Shown here piece by piece: positions 7,557 through 23,208 of a stretch of DNA of 23,208 nt; positions within the stretch are counted from its first letter, which is position 1; each line of letters starts with the position of its first letter. The notes under the pieces are model-generated. The model saw only the letters and a list, made by a program, of their open reading frames with translations, searched no databases and was not told the origin of the DNA. Made by a program: the position numbers and the translations under genes. The DNA is taken from the IMG/VR virus record IMGVR_UViG_3300031753_000038, positions 1 to 23,208 of that record; one strand, 5' to 3'. The stretch comes from a virus.

Positions 7557-7804
7557 GAACAACACAGTGTGATCGTATCCTTGCATTGCTCCAAGCCCAC
7601 CAAGGCTATTGGGTCGGCCTGTTTCGAATCATGCAGCTCCACATTGCCAGCCATACGCGCAGGATTCACGAGCTTCGAAAGATGGGGCATGTGATCGAAA
7701 TGAAAAGTCACTTCATCGGCAGGCAACGGCTTGTCGAATATCGGCTGGTCGAAAAACAAGGAGGAACTTCCAATGCTCGCATTCCACAACGATCCGAAGA
7801 TTAA
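7553..7804 (+). CDS. Small winged-helix DNA-binding protein
   Basis: An 83-residue product from ATG 7553 in an ATGA overlap. It begins TTQCDRILALLQAHQGYWVG and continues with IASHTRRIHELRKMGHVIEM and a beta wing (VEYRLV). This is the classic winged-helix layout with HIASHTRRIHELRK as the recognition helix, seen in many small phage regulators. The end overlaps the next gene by 32 bases. Confidence 0.65.
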   Translation: MRTTQCDRILALLQAHQGYWVGLFRIMQLHIASHTRRIHELRKMGHVIEMKSHFIGRQRLVEYRLVEKQGGTSNARIPQRSED

Positions 7805-8411
7805 GAAAACGTACCTCGCTCGCATCCGTGCTCATATTGCGGCTGATGAGTTAGTTCATGGCGTGTACTGGGAAAACGGCAAAGGCTGCGCGGTCGGCTG
7901 CACAGTCCATTCTTCGAGTCACAGTGTGTATGAAATAGAACTGGGAATCCCGCGCCTCCTTGCGAAGCTTGAGGATGGAATTTTCGAATCGCTTGGCAAT
8001 GGACGCGCAAAAAGATGGCCCGAAGAGTTCTTACTTGCCCCCAGGGTAGGGGCTGATTTGTCGATGGTGTGGCCTCGATTTGCCGCGTGGCTGCTTGTCG
8101 ATCCGAAGTATGGCGTAATTCAGTTCAGTAAATCCGCTCAATCGAAGAAATCTATCCAGGATGTAGCGGATGCCTATGGGCAGGTTGTCGGTGGCACAGC
8201 GGAAGACGTAAATTGGTCGAAGTTGAGGAGGGCTGCCGTTGACGCTGCCGATGCCGCTGCCGCTGCCGCTGCCTATGCCGCTGCCGCTGCCTATGCCTCT
8301 ACCGCTGCCGCTGCCTATGCCGCTGCCGCTGCCGCTGCCGCTGCCCGAAAAGAATGGAGTAATGCGCAGGCGGACAAACTTCTGGAATTGATGCGTGATG
8401 CTCCAGTTTAG
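7773..8411 (+). CDS. Conserved phage-type protein with Ala/Tyr repeat tail
   Basis: A 212-residue product. ATG 7773 follows AAGGAGG by 9 bases, better than the upstream GTG or ATG options. The N-terminal 130 residues carry HIAADELVHGVYWENGKGC, AVGCTVH, YEIELGIPRLLAKLEDGIFE and WPEEFLLAPRVGADLSMVW, which I recall as a recurrent domain of unknown function in phages and bacteria. The C-terminus is nearly all Ala with periodic Tyr (from about residue 155), ending QADKLLELMRDA. The tail is encoded by a GCC/GCT microsatellite. It may form a long helix or coiled coil. Confidence 0.7.
   Translation: MLAFHNDPKIKKTYLARIRAHIAADELVHGVYWENGKGCAVGCTVHSSSHSVYEIELGIPRLLAKLEDGIFESLGNGRAKRWPEEFLLAPRVGADLSMVWPRFAAWLLVDPKYGVIQFSKSAQSKKSIQDVADAYGQVVGGTAEDVNWSKLRRAAVDAADAAAAAAAYAAAAAYASTAAAAYAAAAAAAAARKEWSNAQADKLLELMRDAPV
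8243..8345 (+). repeat. GCCGCT microsatellite encoding poly-Ala
   Basis: An almost pure run of alternating Ala codons GCC and GCT is broken by TAT (Tyr), TCT and ACC. The repeat period is 6 bases with higher-order units ending in GCCTATGCC. Slippage could change the length in steps of two Ala without breaking the frame. Confidence 0.85.
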
Positions 8412-12563: not shown

Positions 12564-12783
12564 TACGACCCAAGTCGTCTACGAGCACGTGAAGCATTTC
12601 TTCTGGACGGCAAACGCTACCGTACTGACCATCGCTCAGTACACGAACATTCAGACGGGAGAGCATCGCTATATTCATTGGCCCCGCGAAAGGATTTGCT
12701 GGTTCAAGGATGAGGAGGAAAGCCATGAAGCCAGTTGTGATTGTGTTGTTGCTCGCCATGCCGCTGTTCGCACAGTCGGATAA
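12532..12783 (+). CDS. Hypothetical beta-rich protein
   Basis: An 83-residue product from ATG 12532, with GCGGAGG about 4 bases upstream. The N-terminal 60 residues (KLTIYRDDSTTQVVYEHVKH, TIAQYTNIQTGEHRYIHWPR) look like a small beta-sheet domain. The last 25 residues are encoded where the gene overlaps the next one by 59 bases and may not be conserved. No family recognised. Confidence 0.5.
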   Translation: MRKLTIYRDDSTTQVVYEHVKHFFWTANATVLTIAQYTNIQTGEHRYIHWPRERICWFKDEEESHEASCDCVVARHAAVRTVG

Positions 12784-13147
12784 GTCGTCAGTAGGCACGA
12801 GCGGAACGGCTGTTTTTATTCCTAAATCTGGGAATCTACCAACCTATGAATGCCATCACGAGGGAAGGGCGATGGTTTGCACTATGCCAACTTCTGGAAT
12901 AAGCATAGCTCTTTCGTCATCTCCTGTTCCGCAACCCGAATGGGTCCCCGACCCAAGCGCCGGGCACTACGACTGCCCGGATGGGTGGATGGCAATGATA
13001 TCAGCGGAACCTGAGAAGTGGCATATACCGAATACATTTGTAAATGGAATGGCAATGGGTGGTGGTCCGCCTAATCTCGACAAAAAGGGCCATATACTTC
13101 GGGATCGTCCCAGTCCGCCAATTTGTATACAGGATGTGAAACCATGA
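12725..13147 (+). CDS. Exported protein of unknown function
   Basis: A 140-residue product from ATG 12725, with GAGGAGGAAAGCC upstream. It begins with a Sec-type signal peptide, MKPVVIVLLLAMPLFAQS, with likely cleavage after AMPLFA or AQ. The mature part has four Cys residues (YECHHEGRAMVC, YDCPDG, ICIQD), which could form two disulfides in the periplasm. The context is a run of membrane and exported genes. A role at the cell envelope, such as blocking superinfection, is inferred. Confidence 0.65.
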   Translation: MKPVVIVLLLAMPLFAQSDKSSVGTSGTAVFIPKSGNLPTYECHHEGRAMVCTMPTSGISIALSSSPVPQPEWVPDPSAGHYDCPDGWMAMISAEPEKWHIPNTFVNGMAMGGGPPNLDKKGHILRDRPSPPICIQDVKP

Positions 13148-13971: not shown

Positions 13972-14372
13972 AGAATCGAAAGACGGAGGCAGCTATCCTG
14001 CTCGAAACGCACATGCGAGAATTGGGGCTGCGTTTCCTGCCAGATGGCAAGCGTGAAAAGGAATTACAATTTTGCCCTCCCAGGCGCTGGCGATTCGATT
14101 ACGTCATCCTGTATAAGCGTGGTCCAGTCGGGAACATCGCAAAAAATATCTTGGGCGGCCTATATCCCTACGAGCTTGCTGTCGAAATCGAGGGGGGTGG
14201 TTGGATTGGCGGTCGGCACATGCGCGGCAAGGGATTCGAAGCGGACCTGGAAAAATATGCAACGGCGACCGCGATGGGCTATACTGTCTTTCGATTCAGC
14301 CCTCGTATGATTCTTACCGGCCAAGCCAAAGAGTTCCTAGCCCAGTGGCTAAAACTAAAGGAGACTCAATGA
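13965..14372 (+). CDS. PD-(D/E)XK-like nuclease (resolvase-like)
   Basis: A 135-residue product from ATG 13965, with GAGGAGG 8 bases upstream. Key features are RRWRFDYVILY (D45), YELAVEIEGGGW (E74, E76), GGRHMRGKGFEADLEKY (with K97) and a final beta strand GYTVFRFS. This matches the restriction-endonuclease-like fold of small phage nucleases related to VRR-NUC and DUF559 proteins, which act as Holliday junction or branched-DNA nucleases. It would process recombination intermediates made by the ERF protein. A long in-frame extension upstream exists but overlaps the LuxR-type gene and lacks a better start. Confidence 0.72.
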   Translation: MVKNRKTEAAILLETHMRELGLRFLPDGKREKELQFCPPRRWRFDYVILYKRGPVGNIAKNILGGLYPYELAVEIEGGGWIGGRHMRGKGFEADLEKYATATAMGYTVFRFSPRMILTGQAKEFLAQWLKLKETQ

Positions 14373-14761
14373 AAAAGCTGTTCCTGCTGTCGACCCTCGC
14401 AGTCTTGCTTATCGTCGCTGTTGCCTTGTCGGGATGCGCGGCATATGTCATCCATCCAGGCGCAACCAGTAGTTTCGATTCACACGCCTATGATGCGTTG
14501 CTGGTGGCCAATGATTCGATCAACTCGGCCAAAGCAGCCCTTTCGACAGGCTCCCTGCCGACCAACTCGGTGGAATACCTGAACATCCTCATCAAGTCGT
14601 ACAACGCCGCCGACGCGCTCTACAAGGTCTACCACGATGCCGCAGTCAAGGGGCAAGACACGTCACAGATGATGGCAAACCTGCAAATCGACCTCAACCA
14701 ACTGGCGACCGACCTGGCAAGCTTCAAGAAAGTGAGCGGAAAAAGAGATGCCGCGATATAG
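14369..14761 (+). CDS. Lipoprotein
   Basis: A 130-residue product from ATG 14369 in an ATGA overlap, preceded by AAAGGAG. The N-terminus MKKLFLLSTLAVLLIV continues to VALSGCAAYV, a canonical lipobox with Cys27 as the lipidated residue. The mature protein is helical (AYDALLVANDSINSAKAAL, ILIKSYNAADALYKVY, DLNQLATDLASFKK). Phage lipoproteins often block adsorption or DNA entry of related phages, so superinfection exclusion is a reasonable guess. It is the last of a run of envelope-directed products. Confidence 0.8.
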   Translation: MKKLFLLSTLAVLLIVAVALSGCAAYVIHPGATSSFDSHAYDALLVANDSINSAKAALSTGSLPTNSVEYLNILIKSYNAADALYKVYHDAAVKGQDTSQMMANLQIDLNQLATDLASFKKVSGKRDAAI

Positions 14762-15608: not shown

Positions 15609-16123
15609 GCTTTCAAGATTCAGTTCGACTCATCATGCTTCAGCATCGAATCACGCATCCCTGGTTTCGACTGTGCCGATATGTGAGACGCGGAGACGTA
15701 GCGGTCTATACGATGGCAAGAACGGGAGAACTTGCCCCACTCAAAGGCTATCGGCTTGTGAGTGGCCGTAGAGCAAAGCGAGTGAGACTTGACAGAAAAT
15801 GGCCCGTCGAAACTTTGAGTCAGATGGAAGTTCTCAAACCTGGGGATGTACAGGGACTATTTTCGGGGATCGACTGGAATCAGTGGTCTCTGGCTGGGCT
15901 GACTGCGTTCCGTCGTAGCTCGGGAGCCTCGCCAGGACTTCACTCGCATACTCTGGGTTGCCGCCCCCGTTCCAAGCGAGCAGGGCTGCTCCGATGTCTG
16001 TGGGATGCTTTTTCAGAATTATCTTCAGATGCGTACATCCTCGCTCTAATCCGGTCAGCGGGTCGCAAAGTTCGGAAAGAAAACGCCCCTCGAAGCCTTC
16101 CTCCCGCGCCACCTCTCCCATGA
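15605..16123 (+). CDS. Hypothetical protein overlapping the lysis gene antisense
   Basis: A 172-codon reading frame from an ATGA overlap. The first 80 residues (SFQDSVRLIMLQHRITHPWF, KGYRLVSGRRAKRVRLDRKW) look plausible for a small basic protein. The remaining half lies opposite the transglycosylase gene over 290 bases and is Ser/Arg/Pro-rich, as expected of antisense reading. The gene start is supported by coupling; its full length is doubtful. Confidence 0.4.
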   Translation: MSFQDSVRLIMLQHRITHPWFRLCRYVRRGDVAVYTMARTGELAPLKGYRLVSGRRAKRVRLDRKWPVETLSQMEVLKPGDVQGLFSGIDWNQWSLAGLTAFRRSSGASPGLHSHTLGCRPRSKRAGLLRCLWDAFSELSSDAYILALIRSAGRKVRKENAPRSLPPAPPLP

Positions 16124-16349
16124 TCTGAAGAAGGCCCCAACTCATCGCCCGCGTGTAGGCTTCTGTCGCGCTCATGTTACCCTTGACGTACAGAGGCGCG
16201 ATGTAGCGGGTCATAAAGTTCGTCTCATAGCGTGTCGCCCACGGGCACCAGCCGCTCTCTTGTTCGATAACAGCACAGACCAGCGCCGCGTCGATGCCAT
16301 GCTCTTGAGCCTTCTGTCGAGCGAGGGCAATCAGGTCAGCCTTTTCCAA
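15834..16349 (-). CDS. Lytic transglycosylase (endolysin)
   Basis: A 171-residue SLT-type enzyme that cleaves peptidoglycan glycan strands during host lysis. The catalytic Glu is E31 in VIEQESGW. The typical GLLQIMG follows at about 72-78, and the AWNGG motif is at about 125-129. No signal peptide is present, so it needs the holin to reach the wall. The last 30 residues are polar and may be a linker. It overlaps the upstream gene by 14 bases and is the last gene of the late minus-strand cassette. Confidence 0.85.
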   Translation of the reverse strand: MEKADLIALARQKAQEHGIDAALVCAVIEQESGWCPWATRYETNFMTRYIAPLYVKGNMSATEAYTRAMSWGLLQIMGEVAREEGFEGRFLSELCDPLTGLERGCTHLKIILKKHPTDIGAALLAWNGGGNPEYASEVLARLPSYDGTQSAQPETTDSSRSPKIVPVHPQV

Positions 16350-16923: not shown

Positions 16924-17295
16924 CTAAACTCTGCCGTGAACATCCAACTCCTCACGAAGTATGCGCCGAATGGCTTCGTTTCGCGCTGCCATAATGTTAT
17001 CGAAATGGGCTTTCAACCTGATATTGGATTCTTCGGCGGCAGCATCGCAGATTTCGCGCAACTTAACTTCCCATTCGCCAGCCTCCCGCGCCCCGGAACC
17101 CTTCCTTTCGGCCATCACGCTTCTCATCATTTCTCTTGTCCTCATCTCCCATTCAGCAAGACCCAGATTGCCAATGCCGGGAATAGTATCCTTTCGACTT
17201 GTCCCGTTGCGCCACGGCTTGAACTTGAGCACAAGCCACAAAGCGAGTAGCGCAAATCCGCCAACGGTTATTTGGCTGGTTGGATCGAAATTCAT
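16924..17295 (-). CDS. Membrane-anchored coiled-coil protein, spanin-like
   Basis: A 123-residue product from ATG 17295 overlapping the holin-like stop. Residues about 10-24 (VGGFALLALWLVLKF) are a transmembrane anchor, and the remaining part is a long charged helix (WEMRTREMMRSVMAERK, AHFDNIMAARNEAIRRIL). This layout resembles inner-membrane spanins, which join inner and outer membranes at lysis. No lipoprotein partner nested in it was found. The assignment is by layout and position. Confidence 0.55.
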   Translation of the reverse strand: MNFDPTSQITVGGFALLALWLVLKFKPWRNGTSRKDTIPGIGNLGLAEWEMRTREMMRSVMAERKGSGAREAGEWEVKLREICDAAAEESNIRLKAHFDNIMAARNEAIRRILREELDVHGRV

Positions 17296-17570
17296 TCATG
17301 TCGTCCATTCGGTGCCTCTGGCGGGGTTGGAGGAGTTCCGTTCGTCGGCGGCTTGCCGTTCGCTGCCTGCGCGAGACGGTACCCGGTCATCATCCCGAGC
17401 AGTGCCGCGAGAATCTGGTCCGATACATGCTCCAGCCAGTTGAGCGTGGCCTGATCTTGCGTGTGATGGACGACATGCAGAAGAACGCCGCCAGCACACA
17501 GGAACAGCGTTACCAGCACAAGGACGTTGAAATGTTCGTCTACGAACTGCCTCACCGTCTCACCCTCCAT
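17292..17570 (-). CDS. Holin-like membrane protein
   Basis: A 92-residue product with two hydrophobic segments, NVLVLVTLFLCAGGVLLHVV (about residues 15-34) and ILAALLGMMTGYRLA (about 53-67), and a Pro-rich polar tail. Two transmembrane helices, small size and location upstream of the endolysin fit a class II-type holin that opens the membrane for the transglycosylase. It overlaps the next gene by an ATGA. The Pro/Thr tail is unusual for a holin. Confidence 0.6.
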   Translation of the reverse strand: MEGETVRQFVDEHFNVLVLVTLFLCAGGVLLHVVHHTQDQATLNWLEHVSDQILAALLGMMTGYRLAQAANGKPPTNGTPPTPPEAPNGRHE

Positions 17571-17579
17571 CCTCTCCGC

Positions 17580-19481
17580 TCATCGAATCACTGCTCCATT
17601 CGATAGCACGCATCCGTTAGCGCAGACAGCCCCACCACCAGGTGACGAAGGCGGCGGTGGTGGAGGCGGGGGCGGTCCTCCACTGCCAACATAGCACACG
17701 CTTCCGTCAAAAGTAGTCACATTCGTCGTGCCATTTGATGTGGCGGAGTTAAAACATGTCAGGGCCGGAATTACATTGACAAACCCATGTAGCGTCGAGG
17801 CCGAGGGATTCTCCCAGTCCGTGAAGTTGCCGCCTACTACATCCGGTCCAATCGGAGGCCATGTGCCGCTCCACCATGTCGGCCTTGCGCTCAAGTAGAA
17901 GCTCGACGGCAGTGCAGCAGGATTTGTGAAAGTATTGACGCCACAGTTGAAGACGTTCGTGTACAGCATCGTGCTGTCGGTGTTGTTTGGTGTGTGTGTG
18001 CCAGACCCGGACATGTACCCAACCGCGATACAGGTCGGACCGCCACCGCTCCCGGCAGCCGTGGGAGACTTGCGGATACTCGAATAGCCTTGGGAGTTGA
18101 TGGCGAAGTCCGATCCTGCCAGGATACCTACGAGGTTATAGTTCTGGGCTGTCCAATCAATCGAATAAGCGACAGCGTTTCCAGTCTGCTGATTAGCAGC
18201 ACCTAAGTTCAGCGCACCTCTAGCATTGATGGGAGGAACACCCTTATTCGACCCGGTTGAAAGTGTACGAAAGAGCGTGTCGTTATTCGCAGACCCCCAT
18301 ACGGAGTCGGCTTGAAAATGTGTCGTTATGTTTCCCTCAAATAAATTGAACATCGGATTCGCGCCATGGGTGGCATCAATGTCCGATATTAACCAGCTAT
18401 TGAAGGTGCCGGTCGGAGCATCATAGGCTCCCGTCGAGTAGTTATAAGCGATGACATTGCCAGACGCACCCCACTCTAGCATGATGCTTACGTGCTGCCG
18501 CCATAAGATGTTGTTCTGAATGAGATTGGCGCTTGATTTGTAGCTCAGTCGTAGCTGGTCATCCTCAGTGCCTGGGCCATGCGAATAACCATCATGAAAG
18601 AAGCTATCCTGAATTGTATCGTGGAGCGACCAGTCAATATGCATGTGAGCACCGTTGGCGAAGTCGCTCTCGACATTCTTGACCCAACTGTTGACGGTAG
18701 CAACCATGTTGATGTTCGGATTGTAGCCTGTGTTGGGTTGCGCTGTGAGATGAAGATTCTCTAGGCCAGCGTTTGCACACGCCGCGTTGTATGGGTAAGC
18801 AGCCTGGCCACCGTTCGTGTAGGCAAGATAAAGTGGTTCGCTGATGCCGATTGTTGTTCCACTGATGCTTGTCACTTGAACAGTCTGGCCTGACAAGCCG
18901 CCGATTCCTCCGTTGCACCAGGAGCACGTCCCATTGTCACCCTGGTTTGTCATAATAGCCGAGTCGTTCTGAGAGAGTGTCATCAGCATCCCGACGCTGA
19001 TCCCCGAGGCGCTCGCTACGGTGATACTCTTGGAGTTCTGGGCCGTGCCTCCGGTAATCGCGGTGCTATTCCCTGAGTTCGGGCCACCGCCATTTCCAAA
19101 ACTGACGATCCCGCAACTGGCGCTTCCAGTCGTATTGATGATTGTTTTCGTCGGGCCTGAGCCGCGCAATACAACATTGCTTGGGATGATGATACATCCA
19201 CCGTTCGTGTTATAGGTGCCAGGATTGAGCAGCACGACTTGCCCGCTAGCACATCCAGCCAGAGCTGAATTGATCTGAATTGTCGTGACAGATTGCACAG
19301 TACTTGAGGATAGACCAGACGTACCGAGCGTGGAACACAACACGGTCCGTGACGGGATGCCGCTTGGGACGCCTACGCCAGACCAGTCGGTCGCTCTGGC
19401 TGGGTTGAGAATGCCAGACCAGAGCTGCGCGTGGGCAGCAACAGGCAAGAGAAACATGACAATGAAGAGTCTTCGGATCAC
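17580..19481 (-). CDS. Exported right-handed beta-helix protein (depolymerase or tail spike type)
   Basis: A 633-residue product from GTG 19481 in a GTGA overlap. It starts with a Sec signal peptide, MIRRLFIVMFLLPVAAHAQ. Residues about 85-150 (GQVVLLNPGTYNT, IPSNVVLRGSGPTKTIINT) are typical of right-handed parallel beta-helix proteins of the pectate lyase type. The centre has several Asn/His/Asp-rich turns (HDTIQDSFFHDGYSHG). The C-terminus has a run of nine Pro followed by SSPGGG and a Cys-containing cap (VCANGC). It likely binds or cuts surface polysaccharide. A signal peptide on such a phage protein is odd. Confidence 0.72.
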   Translation of the reverse strand: MIRRLFIVMFLLPVAAHAQLWSGILNPARATDWSGVGVPSGIPSRTVLCSTLGTSGLSSSTVQSVTTIQINSALAGCASGQVVLLNPGTYNTNGGCIIIPSNVVLRGSGPTKTIINTTGSASCGIVSFGNGGGPNSGNSTAITGGTAQNSKSITVASASGISVGMLMTLSQNDSAIMTNQGDNGTCSWCNGGIGGLSGQTVQVTSISGTTIGISEPLYLAYTNGGQAAYPYNAACANAGLENLHLTAQPNTGYNPNINMVATVNSWVKNVESDFANGAHMHIDWSLHDTIQDSFFHDGYSHGPGTEDDQLRLSYKSSANLIQNNILWRQHVSIMLEWGASGNVIAYNYSTGAYDAPTGTFNSWLISDIDATHGANPMFNLFEGNITTHFQADSVWGSANNDTLFRTLSTGSNKGVPPINARGALNLGAANQQTGNAVAYSIDWTAQNYNLVGILAGSDFAINSQGYSSIRKSPTAAGSGGGPTCIAVGYMSGSGTHTPNNTDSTMLYTNVFNCGVNTFTNPAALPSSFYLSARPTWWSGTWPPIGPDVVGGNFTDWENPSASTLHGFVNVIPALTCFNSATSNGTTNVTTFDGSVCYVGSGGPPPPPPPPPSSPGGGAVCANGCVLSNGAVIR

Positions 19482-20206
19482 GGTCCACCAAAAGTGATAC
19501 TAGCCTGCGGCGCATTCGACGCCCCGACAGTAGCCGGAAGCAAACACACTATGCTAACCCTCGCGTGAAACGTATTTGTGGTAGCGGTAAACTGCGCCGC
19601 GACATTGCCCGCCGTTCCCTGCACCACACTAGAGGATTCATTGTAGTTGCCGTTCGTGCCTCGCAGAACCCAGGAATAGTTCGTCCCGGCAGTAAACGTG
19701 TTGTTGGAGTTCTGGTCATCATGAATTGCCGAGAAGCAGTAGTCTGCCGCTGTCGTAGTGACAGTTGCTCCAGTAAAAGAAGTTCCAGTCAAGTCACCGC
19801 TCAAGCTGTGCACGTCAAGTGCGGCAGCAGTTTTAACGCCACTGGCCTCATGGCAATCAAGGCTTTGGGCAAGGACCGATCCTGAAATCGTAACCGTGAC
19901 GGTTGCGGTCCCGCCAGCCTCATTCAATAAGTAATAGGTTGCGGCGGTATTTGTCGATGAGCTAGTACTGTCAATGACCGTAAAATTCGCAGCATTTCCA
20001 TCTCTAAATGTGCTGATCGTAACTGACGTACTACCCCATCCAAACATACAGATCACTGCGCTTCCAATGCTCAGGTTAGAGGAAAAGGTTGCTGTCAAGC
20101 TCGTGCCAGAGGTTTGCGTGGCACTTGCAGCTTGTACAAACGTAGCGGTGGCCTTCACGGACCTTGCACACAGCAACAAAGGAAGCAGTAGAATTAAGCG
20201 TTTCAT
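19478..20206 (-). CDS. Exported beta-sandwich protein
   Basis: A 242-residue product. ATG 20206 overlaps the previous stop (ATGA) and has GGG 6 bases upstream; ATG 20212 is a poorer choice. The signal peptide is MKRLILLLPLLLCARSVKA. The mature part is Thr/Ser/Ala-rich and beta-strand-rich (TSLTATFSSNLSIGSAVICM, GGTATVTVTISGSV, DCHEASGVKTAAAL). This resembles Ig-like domains of bacterial surface proteins in which an E-x-S-G-V element is recurrent. Probably a receptor- or surface-binding protein. The signal peptide implies export rather than normal virion assembly. Confidence 0.68.
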   Translation of the reverse strand: MKRLILLLPLLLCARSVKATATFVQAASATQTSGTSLTATFSSNLSIGSAVICMFGWGSTSVTISTFRDGNAANFTVIDSTSSSTNTAATYYLLNEAGGTATVTVTISGSVLAQSLDCHEASGVKTAAALDVHSLSGDLTGTSFTGATVTTTAADYCFSAIHDDQNSNNTFTAGTNYSWVLRGTNGNYNESSSVVQGTAGNVAAQFTATTNTFHARVSIVCLLPATVGASNAPQASITFGGP

Positions 20207-21642
20207 CGCCATCCCTTACAGTTGATAGAGGCCGCTCCTGGAGTGATGCTCGACCCTGTAGTATTCAACTGGTCCACGTTGATTGTATTCGTTGTCAAGT
20301 AGGGCTTGAGGGTCAGAACGGTCGTCCCGCCATAGCCGGTCACCGCGTTCGTGTCCCCGACTAGCGTACAGTTGATCGTGTCTGTCGCCGTCGATAGACC
20401 AGTACACGCCGCAGTATTGGCAACTCGGACACCCGAACCAATCGCGCTGGTCGAGAGAGCGATCTGGACAGGAGGGCAAATCTCTAGTGGCAGCCTGCCA
20501 GTAGTGCCCCCATTAAACGAGCACAGTGGAGCACTTGTCGTTGTGGAGTCGTTGTAGCAATTATGCTGCCCCGCTGTGGCAAAGCCAACCGGGATCGTAC
20601 CTGCATTGGGTAGGCTCCACTCTGATCCCGCACCACTGCCGGAGCCAGATTGAACCGGCCCAGGAGTAGTGAAGGTGGTTATGCCGGTGCTCGTTCCTGA
20701 GACACCAAGAGCAATCGTGAGAGGGGCATTGACTCCATTACCAGGAAGAATAGACATGTTCCAACAGGACTCGACATCGGAGCCGGTCCAGGCGCGGCCA
20801 CAGCCGCCAAGAAAAGGGCTACCTTGGCTGGTGCCTACCGAGGCAGGTGTCGTGTTCTTCAGATCGAATGCGTGAGAGAGGGCCGTTGTATAATTCAGCG
20901 TTGTGAGGTTCGATGCCATCGTCAACCCCAGGCTAGAGGCTGGATTGGTTAAGCTGGACCATGCAACGGTTCCGGCACTCGATCCCCATGATGGCACGCC
21001 TGCATTCGTCTCCTGTAAGAACTGCGTTCCAGAATTGTTGCCTGGCAATAGTGACCAGGCTGTACAGACACCGCTGAACGTCTGACAATAAATCATGTCC
21101 CCAGCTCGCGTAGCTGCCGGGAGAATATCATTCAAGCAGTTCTGTCCTGTGTCTACCTTGATGTCGGCCCCACCATTTCCAACAACGCACGAATTGAGAG
21201 TCAAGCTACCAACCGTGTGGAGTACTGTACCGGAGTTGCTAGAGGTGGTCGTAGCCGGGTTGATGAGAATAAACTCTGTGCCGTCATAGATGTGGCACGC
21301 CGGAACTCCCAACACCCAGTCATTTGCAACTAGCGGCGCGATGCCGTTGCTATTTTTCACGGTAGGTTTAGCACCGAGGCCACTCCAGTTGAGCGTAGGC
21401 GCTGCGCCCGTGTTATTGGCCACAGGGGTGAAGCAGTACAGAACCCCGGTCGAGATGTAACTGGTGATTGCTGGATTCGGCGTTGCGGTCTGAGCCTGAG
21501 CCGTGCCGCCGCCAGCACCACTGACAATGGTGCCAGGTGAGCCAGGGGCGAGTCCCGTACCGCCACCCACCCTGACACCCTGCGCCCACAGGCTCCAGGG
21601 AATCAGTAGTGCAATAAGTAGTCGTTTCATGTTTGGTCTCAT
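20203..21642 (-). CDS. Tail-fibre-like protein with signal peptide
   Basis: A 479-residue product. ATG 21642 has AGGA 8 bases upstream; ATG 21630 would give a shorter form, and both carry the leader MKRLLIALLIPWSLWAQG. The mature part has phage tail-fibre patterns: TLNWSGLGAKPTVKNSNG, WVLGVPACHIYDGTEFILIN and LLPGNNSGTQFLQETNAG. The C-terminus is Thr/Gly-rich, ending INCKGWR. Tail fibres recognise the host receptor. The leader before a tail fibre is unexpected and is shared by the two downstream genes. Confidence 0.68.
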   Translation of the reverse strand: MRPNMKRLLIALLIPWSLWAQGVRVGGGTGLAPGSPGTIVSGAGGGTAQAQTATPNPAITSYISTGVLYCFTPVANNTGAAPTLNWSGLGAKPTVKNSNGIAPLVANDWVLGVPACHIYDGTEFILINPATTTSSNSGTVLHTVGSLTLNSCVVGNGGADIKVDTGQNCLNDILPAATRAGDMIYCQTFSGVCTAWSLLPGNNSGTQFLQETNAGVPSWGSSAGTVAWSSLTNPASSLGLTMASNLTTLNYTTALSHAFDLKNTTPASVGTSQGSPFLGGCGRAWTGSDVESCWNMSILPGNGVNAPLTIALGVSGTSTGITTFTTPGPVQSGSGSGAGSEWSLPNAGTIPVGFATAGQHNCYNDSTTTSAPLCSFNGGTTGRLPLEICPPVQIALSTSAIGSGVRVANTAACTGLSTATDTINCTLVGDTNAVTGYGGTTVLTLKPYLTTNTINVDQLNTTGSSITPGAASINCKGWR

Positions 21643-21667
21643 CGCTAGAATCCTATTGCCGTGAAGG

Positions 21668-21811
21668 TCAGTATGCTGTAGTCACCCATTTATTTACGAT
21701 CCAGGTTTTATTTCCAGCCGCTATACCTGGCCCATTGCCCTGCACGAAACCGTTCGCAGCCCAAAGAGACTGGCCGGTTATTAGAATTAAAAAGATTAGG
21801 CACTTTTTCAC
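21668..21811 (-). CDS. Very small exported peptide, possibly a truncated gene
   Basis: A 47-residue product from GTG 21811 in a GTGA overlap. MKKCLIFLILITGQSLWAAN is a clear Sec signal. Only about 28 residues would remain after cleavage (GFVQGNGPGIAAGNKTWIVN and a short end). The part after the leader resembles the start of the next protein (LWAQG-V-GGGTGLAPG). A shift of one base near the stop would add SILTFTAIGF, so a frameshifted relic is possible. A functional secreted peptide cannot be excluded. Confidence 0.5.
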   Translation of the reverse strand: MKKCLIFLILITGQSLWAANGFVQGNGPGIAAGNKTWIVNKWVTTAY

Positions 21812-23208
21812 TGCAACCTCACCACGGATGCTTGTAGGCGATAAGTTCCAGTTCCGACCCCACAAGCTGTATAGCCGGTGGCATATTGGATAACTGAACC
21901 GTTTGAAGAAAGCGTGAATTGACCGCTCGCCCAAGCAGTACCCAAAGCAGTTTGGAAATGAAAAGTCTGTGAGACGGCATTGATGGCAGAGGCATCATCC
22001 ATACCCAACGATACAGCTGAGTGCGTTGTTCCATTGGCGTCGGTCCAAGTGAGCAGAAACGTGACTCCGCCCGTGCCTGGAGTACCACACGCTGTGCCGG
22101 TTTCTATGAAATCAAAGTGGACCTCGTATTGACCTGCCTGATTACAGGCTCCAGCAGCAGCAGCGCAAAGAGTCGCGGTAGAAACTGCCGCAGTAAGGTC
22201 TCCAGAATTGATTGCGGTCGGCTGAGTCAAATTATACATCTGCGCCCCACCGCTAAACACAGTCACCGGCGTAAAGGCTGTATTTGAAGATGGGATCGCC
22301 GCTCCAGCACTAACAGATGTAAATGTTGCATTTCCTGCCCCTACAGTATATAACTGTCTAATCTGCTTCACTTGGCAGGCTTGCTTGTTTCCTGGCAAAG
22401 TAATTACAGCGTTCGCAGAACCACAGACGGTACTATTTATAGGCTGAAGAGTTTCACTTCCTGCACCACCTCCGGCCGCAGAAATATAAGTTCGGAATCC
22501 AATAATGCCCTCCGCTGTAGTAGTGAAAAAATTCCCATTTGGGCTCGCAAGAATCGAAGATGTTGTCCCGGAGCACACAACCGAGGTTCTCGCTACTGTC
22601 GTCTCTCCCAGGAGGCTATTTACGTAGGTAGTTGACACCTGGTATGTTCCAGCTCCTATTGTTCCTCCTGTTGATGGACAGCTTGCGGTCGTTGAGGATG
22701 GAACAGAAATCTGCACTCCCGTGCTCATCGCCCTTCCAACGATTTGGTTATTCAGCGGAGGCATTGTAGAAGCGGCCCCGAAATCGTGTACGGCTCCGGC
22801 GAGTGTAGAACTTAAAATTATATAATCGCCAATCGTTACGGCATTGTCTGGGATGCAGTACGCCTGCCCAGTAAGAATTACTTCTGCAAATCCTGTAGTT
22901 GGTTGGTTCGGAGAATTAGCTTCGTAATCCCTACGTTGTGTAGAGCAGCCCAATGCGCCATTTGCGTCTGTAGTGGCCGTAGTCGTAACCTTCCCTGTAG
23001 CTCCAGACCACTTAACAACACCCAACGCGAAAATACCGTTTGTTCCTGTGTCTATTGGAAGTTCTTGTGTTATCGGTGCACTGCCAAAATTCATCGTGTT
23101 TGGCGCAATGTCAGCAAGCGTGTTAGGCTCGTTTGCCGGTGGGACACTATTGAATGTAATTGCGCTCCCAGTATCCAACCAATGTGTAAGTGGAATCCCA
23201 CCCTGTGA
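21808..23208 (-). CDS. Tail/adhesin-like protein, 3' part (cut by window edge)
   Basis: The frame is open from the right edge to a TGA at 21808, at least 466 residues, so the start lies outside the window; TTG 23178 need not be the start. The visible part is Thr/Ser/Gly/Ala-rich and beta-rich. The C-terminal domain has EVHFDFIETGTACGTPGTGG, VTFLLTWTDANGTTHSAVSL and SQTFHFQTALGTAWASGQFT, a compact jelly-roll-like module that may form trimers or bind receptor. Several paired Cys residues suggest disulfides, which would fit export like that of its downstream neighbours. Confidence 0.6.
   Translation of the reverse strand, partial: SQGGIPLTHWLDTGSAITFNSVPPANEPNTLADIAPNTMNFGSAPITQELPIDTGTNGIFALGVVKWSGATGKVTTTATTDANGALGCSTQRRDYEANSPNQPTTGFAEVILTGQAYCIPDNAVTIGDYIILSSTLAGAVHDFGAASTMPPLNNQIVGRAMSTGVQISVPSSTTASCPSTGGTIGAGTYQVSTTYVNSLLGETTVARTSVVCSGTTSSILASPNGNFFTTTAEGIIGFRTYISAAGGGAGSETLQPINSTVCGSANAVITLPGNKQACQVKQIRQLYTVGAGNATFTSVSAGAAIPSSNTAFTPVTVFSGGAQMYNLTQPTAINSGDLTAAVSTATLCAAAAGACNQAGQYEVHFDFIETGTACGTPGTGGVTFLLTWTDANGTTHSAVSLGMDDASAINAVSQTFHFQTALGTAWASGQFTLSSNGSVIQYATGYTACGVGTGTYRLQASVVRLQ

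Follow-up and report, generated by a model that had tools for sequence, protein, structure and literature searches.

Four consecutive genes of a tailed soil phage encode products that each begin with a predicted Sec leader, and sequence comparison indicates that the fibre- and spike-type proteins among them are probably exported through the host Sec system, folded under oxidising conditions and released at lysis. The tail fibres of tailed phages normally assemble in the cytoplasm, and leaders on fibre-like proteins are for this reason unexpected. The window, meaning the whole stretch of DNA that was analysed, is an entire virus record of 23,208 bases and a linear fragment. On its minus strand, toward lower coordinates, a fibre-like open reading frame (ORF) cut by the contig end is followed by the four leader-bearing ORFs, a holin-like ORF and an SLT endolysin (Table 1; products are named here by the position at which their genes start). 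An earlier note gave the cassette coordinates correctly. It also described the genes as coupled by overlaps, which is the case at 21808-21811 (GTGA), 20203-20206 (ATGA) and 19478-19481 (GTGA), but the junction between the 21811 and 21642 genes is a 25-bp gap. The setting of the cassette in a late structural operon, beside tail and lysis genes, is seen from the family and the window together, as the contig breaks off before the window's own upstream tail genes are reached.

Table 1. Leader-bearing cassette and neighbouring genes in the window
Feature	Position	Strand	Remarks
Fibre-like ORF, frame open to contig end at 23208	21808..23208	-	N-terminus beyond contig
47-aa ORF, GTG start	21668..21811	-	Predicted Sec leader 18 aa (21758-21811) and 29-aa mature peptide
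479-aa fibre-like protein, ATG start	20203..21642	-	Predicted Sec leader 20 aa (21583-21642); 14 mature Cys
242-aa beta-sandwich-like protein, ATG start	19478..20206	-	Predicted Sec leader 18-21 aa; 4 mature Cys
633-aa right-handed beta-helix protein, GTG start	17580..19481	-	Predicted Sec leader 18 aa (19428-19481); 13 mature Cys (odd)
Holin-like protein, directly downstream of cassette	17292..17570	-	Weak matches, below cut-off
SLT-domain endolysin	15834..16349	-
Terminase large subunit; defines phage family	1739..3274	-

Leaders were scored with a rule of our own for the n-, h- and c-regions, not with SignalP. The rule looks for a positive n-region, a hydrophobic core of at least 9 residues and an AxA-type site within about 15-30 aa, and its cut-off is 7.5. 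All four ORFs score 8.5-9.5, which bears out the proposal that each carries a Sec/SPase-I leader. The predicted cleavage sites follow MKKCLIFLILITGQSLWA (before ANGF) in the 21811 product, MRPNMKRLLIALLIPWSLWA (before QGVR) in the 21642 product, MKRLILLLPLLLCARSVKA (before T, or alternatively between ATA and T) in the 20206 product and MIRRLFIVMFLLPVAAHA (before QLWS) in the 19481 product. Because the scorer is a simple rule, controls matter. The same rule passes 80 of 4979 spurious ORFs from 28 related contigs (1.6%), while in the 23 largest core clusters not one of the roughly 385 genes passes; four passing in a row by chance would have a probability of about 7e-8 if independent. Therefore, four consecutive leaders are far beyond chance.

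Leader-bearing genes of this kind are found across the phage family. A terminase search identified 17 relatives, a profile then gave about 40 close ones, and 27 related records formed the comparison sample. The relatives have a common structural operon with terminase, a portal-sized protein, the major head protein and, later, tail genes; these gene names, except for terminase and head protein, are mostly putative. The earlier note suggested looking for leaders on homologues in related phages, and the answer is positive: all 13 terminase-related contigs that reach the tail cluster encode at least one long, low-charge, leader-bearing fibre-like protein, with up to five leader-bearing genes per contig. 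They may follow the portal-like gene, precede the large tail gene or come after the tail cluster. Their leader sequences differ while the architecture is kept, and Q at +1 is common. Leaderless fibre-like genes likewise occur in relatives. One relative, G006 (IMGVR_UViG_3300020579_000009, 78,747 b), contains two complete morphogenesis modules and two terminases; it comprises two phages in tandem or else was joined during assembly.

The mature leader-bearing proteins are also distinguished by their cysteines. After removal of redundancy at 50% identity, 66 such proteins were counted; cysteine makes up 2.27% of their residues compared to 0.49% in core proteins and 0.86% in leaderless fibre-like proteins. 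The number of cysteines is even in 52 of the 65 leader-bearing proteins that have any (binomial p=1e-6), compared to 16 of 32 leaderless fibre-like proteins. Even cysteine numbers are frequent in exported bacterial proteins, owing to disulfides (PMC12421883). Export with disulfide bonding of the leader-bearing proteins is thus a well supported reading of these sequences.

The clearest paired comparison comes from a domain with an invariant Cys pair that opens the mature form of many fibres in the relatives, although none of the four window proteins contains it. It was found at 65 viral loci. At 30 of these a leader lies ahead of it, in most cases adjoining it or separated from it by a few residues, and the proteins mostly have 10-44 Cys each. 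At most other loci the protein begins at the domain (M-x-x-x-R-[YF]-D or similar), the Cys pair is altered and only 0-2 Cys are present. The mature start of the leader-bearing forms equals the start of the leaderless forms (Q-N-L-R-Y-D versus M-S-N-R-Y-D), and the leaderless domain proteins contain fibre-like repeats. Leader and extra cysteines seem to have been gained or lost together in three sets of homologues, namely those of this domain, of the 20206 product and of the 21642 product. The domain with and without a leader offers a ready pair for laboratory comparison. Two candidate connections were rejected: profile comparison does not place the L221 beta-helix protein ('QGYSYQ') among the domain's carriers, and group C, another leaderless fibre domain, proved not homologous to the exported domain. 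A tblastn search of INPHARED with the two N-terminal domains gave no matches. In the large phage contigs L237-L268 the domain occurs without a leader, often followed by a leaderless fibre-like protein of ~1500 aa.

Searches of Pfam, PHROGs and NCBIfam with the four cassette proteins gave no matches. Residues 62-128 of the 21642 product form a domain shared with the tail fibres of coliphages PTXU04 and Pondi (Xuquatrovirus), at about 47% identity over 67 aa. The coliphage fibre has no leader, and it lacks Cys at two positions where the 21642 domain has it. The description of this product as fibre-like is therefore apt, and it is the only one in the cassette with a domain of a known fibre. The 20206 product has two leaderless relatives in structural operons, G003_22 and G013_19 (phmmer 3e-5 and 3e-4); by eye, its mature cysteines appear to fall where these relatives have mostly hydrophobic residues. 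Neither 20206 nor 19481, used alone as a direct query against viral contigs, yielded relatives, and no relatives of the small 21811 peptide were detected. An AlphaFold prediction of one relative's fibre gave no usable model (pLDDT 37). A leader-bearing protein of 1618 aa from contig L221 (IMGVR_UViG_3300021180_000018) ends in a region that matches the C-terminal ~140 aa of the ORF at 21808..23208, which lies at the contig end of the window. L221 has an apparently different terminase, and it carries leader-bearing relatives of both this ORF (in the C-terminal domain) and the 19481 product, in the same order.

The 19481 product differs in origin from the other cassette proteins, belonging by homology to a family of secreted bacterial beta-helix proteins that is widespread in Acidobacteriota. 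Its homology to secreted pectate-lyase-like beta-helix proteins, from Acidobacteriota and from other phyla, extends over nearly the full length and takes in the leader, which the Acidobacteriota homologues retain. The best homologue has 38% identity, the genome collection gave more than 300 matches, and nearly all homologues are cellular; what sets the phage protein apart is that its gene belongs to a late operon, with fibre-like genes on one side and holin/endolysin on the other. In a tree it lies among cellular sequences, and two other phage copies group with Acidobacteriota elsewhere. At least two transfers are therefore likely. The name beta-helix fits the predicted fold, whose core has pLDDT mostly of 75-95, and also the best Foldseek matches, which are phage tailspike or capsule depolymerases and secreted polygalacturonases or epimerases, all at low TM-scores (about 0.35). 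Homology and fold agree with PF12708 (pectate-lyase-like beta-helix), and although 19481 itself has no Pfam match at the gathering score, its homologue L143 passes (29.7 vs 27). Tailspike depolymerases such as LKA1 gp49, phi297 gp61, AP22 Gp54 and the Klebsiella K1 lyase resemble it in fold and in the position of the gene near lysis genes. In contrast to these, it has a Sec leader, many cysteines and close homologues that are secreted cellular proteins.

The homologues of 19481, together with a phage region found on a bacterial contig assigned to an Acidobacteriota genome, suggest that the host is a member of the Acidobacteriota. The phage region resembles the cassette in layout: a domain protein without a leader precedes a leader-bearing fibre-like protein of 1143 aa, with 20 Cys in its mature part, and a phage lysozyme comes two genes later. 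Ordinary chromosomal genes lie farther along the same contig, and mis-binning of the contig is possible.

Regarding function, the earlier note had suggested that the products may be secreted adhesins or depolymerases, or virion parts that are added once exported. The idea of export has good support from the family-wide pattern and the cysteine signature; the treatment of the four as one kind does not stand, as their homologies point to a member of a secreted bacterial family (19481), two proteins with leaderless phage relatives (21642 and 20206) and a lone small peptide (21811). The fibre- and spike-type proteins of the cassette would probably be produced late in infection and carried out of the cytoplasm by the host Sec machinery, with the leader cleaved between A and Q, or between A and T or A. 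The mature proteins would then acquire disulfide bonds as they fold in the periplasm, an oxidising compartment, and they may bind or cut cell-surface polysaccharide, as their fold and homology suggest. Finally, the neighbouring holin/endolysin pair would open the cell and free them together with the particles. The coat proteins pIII and pVIII of filamentous phages also use Sec before assembly, but those phages are extruded through membranes, whereas the terminase here is of a tailed-phage family.

Two fates can be considered for the exported proteins; both are sub-cases of the explanation just given, and their probabilities lie within its own. The first, a real possibility that falls somewhat short of an even chance, is that fibres matured in the periplasm attach to tails at or after lysis and act as true receptor-binding proteins. 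The coincidence of mature N-termini with leaderless starts, the fibre-like repeats of the leaderless forms and the position of leader genes within the structural operon, where several relatives have them among portal-like, capsid and tail genes, argue for this. However, the role of the leaderless form as a tail anchor is judged from position and composition, and 19481 has no recognised phage anchor domain.

The second fate, which we consider just as probable as the first, is that the products stay off the virion as a phage-encoded secretome of adhesins or depolymerases directed against host capsule, matrix or neighbouring cells. This is consistent with the membership of 19481 in a secreted bacterial family with phage copies at two or more places in the tree, and with a predicted secreted peptide of 47 aa within the same cassette. 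Moreover, the leaderless fibre-like genes of relatives could serve the virion. On the other hand, fibre-type domain composition and operon position match virion fibres.

If the fibres are exported, either the assembly of tailed phages can span two compartments, or phages possess a secretome whose adhesins and depolymerases derive from fibres. The proposal that a lineage of tailed soil phages makes its virion receptor-binding fibres outside the cytoplasm, by way of Sec, periplasmic disulfides and docking at or after lysis, is slightly less probable than either fate. Disulfide-bonded fibres could have unusual stability in soil. No precedent for two-compartment assembly in tailed phages, or for leader-bearing tail fibres, was found in the open-licence papers that were searched.

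The nearest precedent is lambda Lom, a leader-bearing gene between tail genes in the tail operon (PMC12309495). The genes could likewise be lysogenic-conversion morons that alter the surface of the lysogen, as the leader-bearing gene in the tail region of the bacterial contig would allow, but this is unlikely. Lom is a single outer-membrane beta-barrel, whereas several fibre-type proteins are present per phage here. Start and stop codons overlap those of neighbours, and promoter- and terminator-like sites are no more frequent than chance. In addition, searches with a TerL profile yielded no prophage, either in a scan of genomes or among 396 Acidobacteriota genomes (0 of 396), and the terminase family therefore gives no sign of lysogeny. 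That the hydrophobic N-termini arose by accident, or serve to anchor the proteins in a membrane instead of being cleaved leaders, is very improbable: the leader prediction is rule-based only, but leaders are absent from the core genes and present in all tail-reaching contigs, the site between A and Q recurs, and cysteine parity and enrichment accompany them.

Three further ORFs on the plus strand of the window, outside the cassette, may be mentioned. A 145-aa ORF at 12710-13147 has a strong predicted leader, MRRKAMKPVVIVLLLAMPLFA before QS (score 9.6), and the ORF at 14369-14761 encodes a predicted lipoprotein of 130 aa with an LSGC lipobox, which has a relative in G006 (HPGA motif). The ORF at 7731-8411 features a long Ala-rich low-complexity tail that arises from GCC-type repeats.
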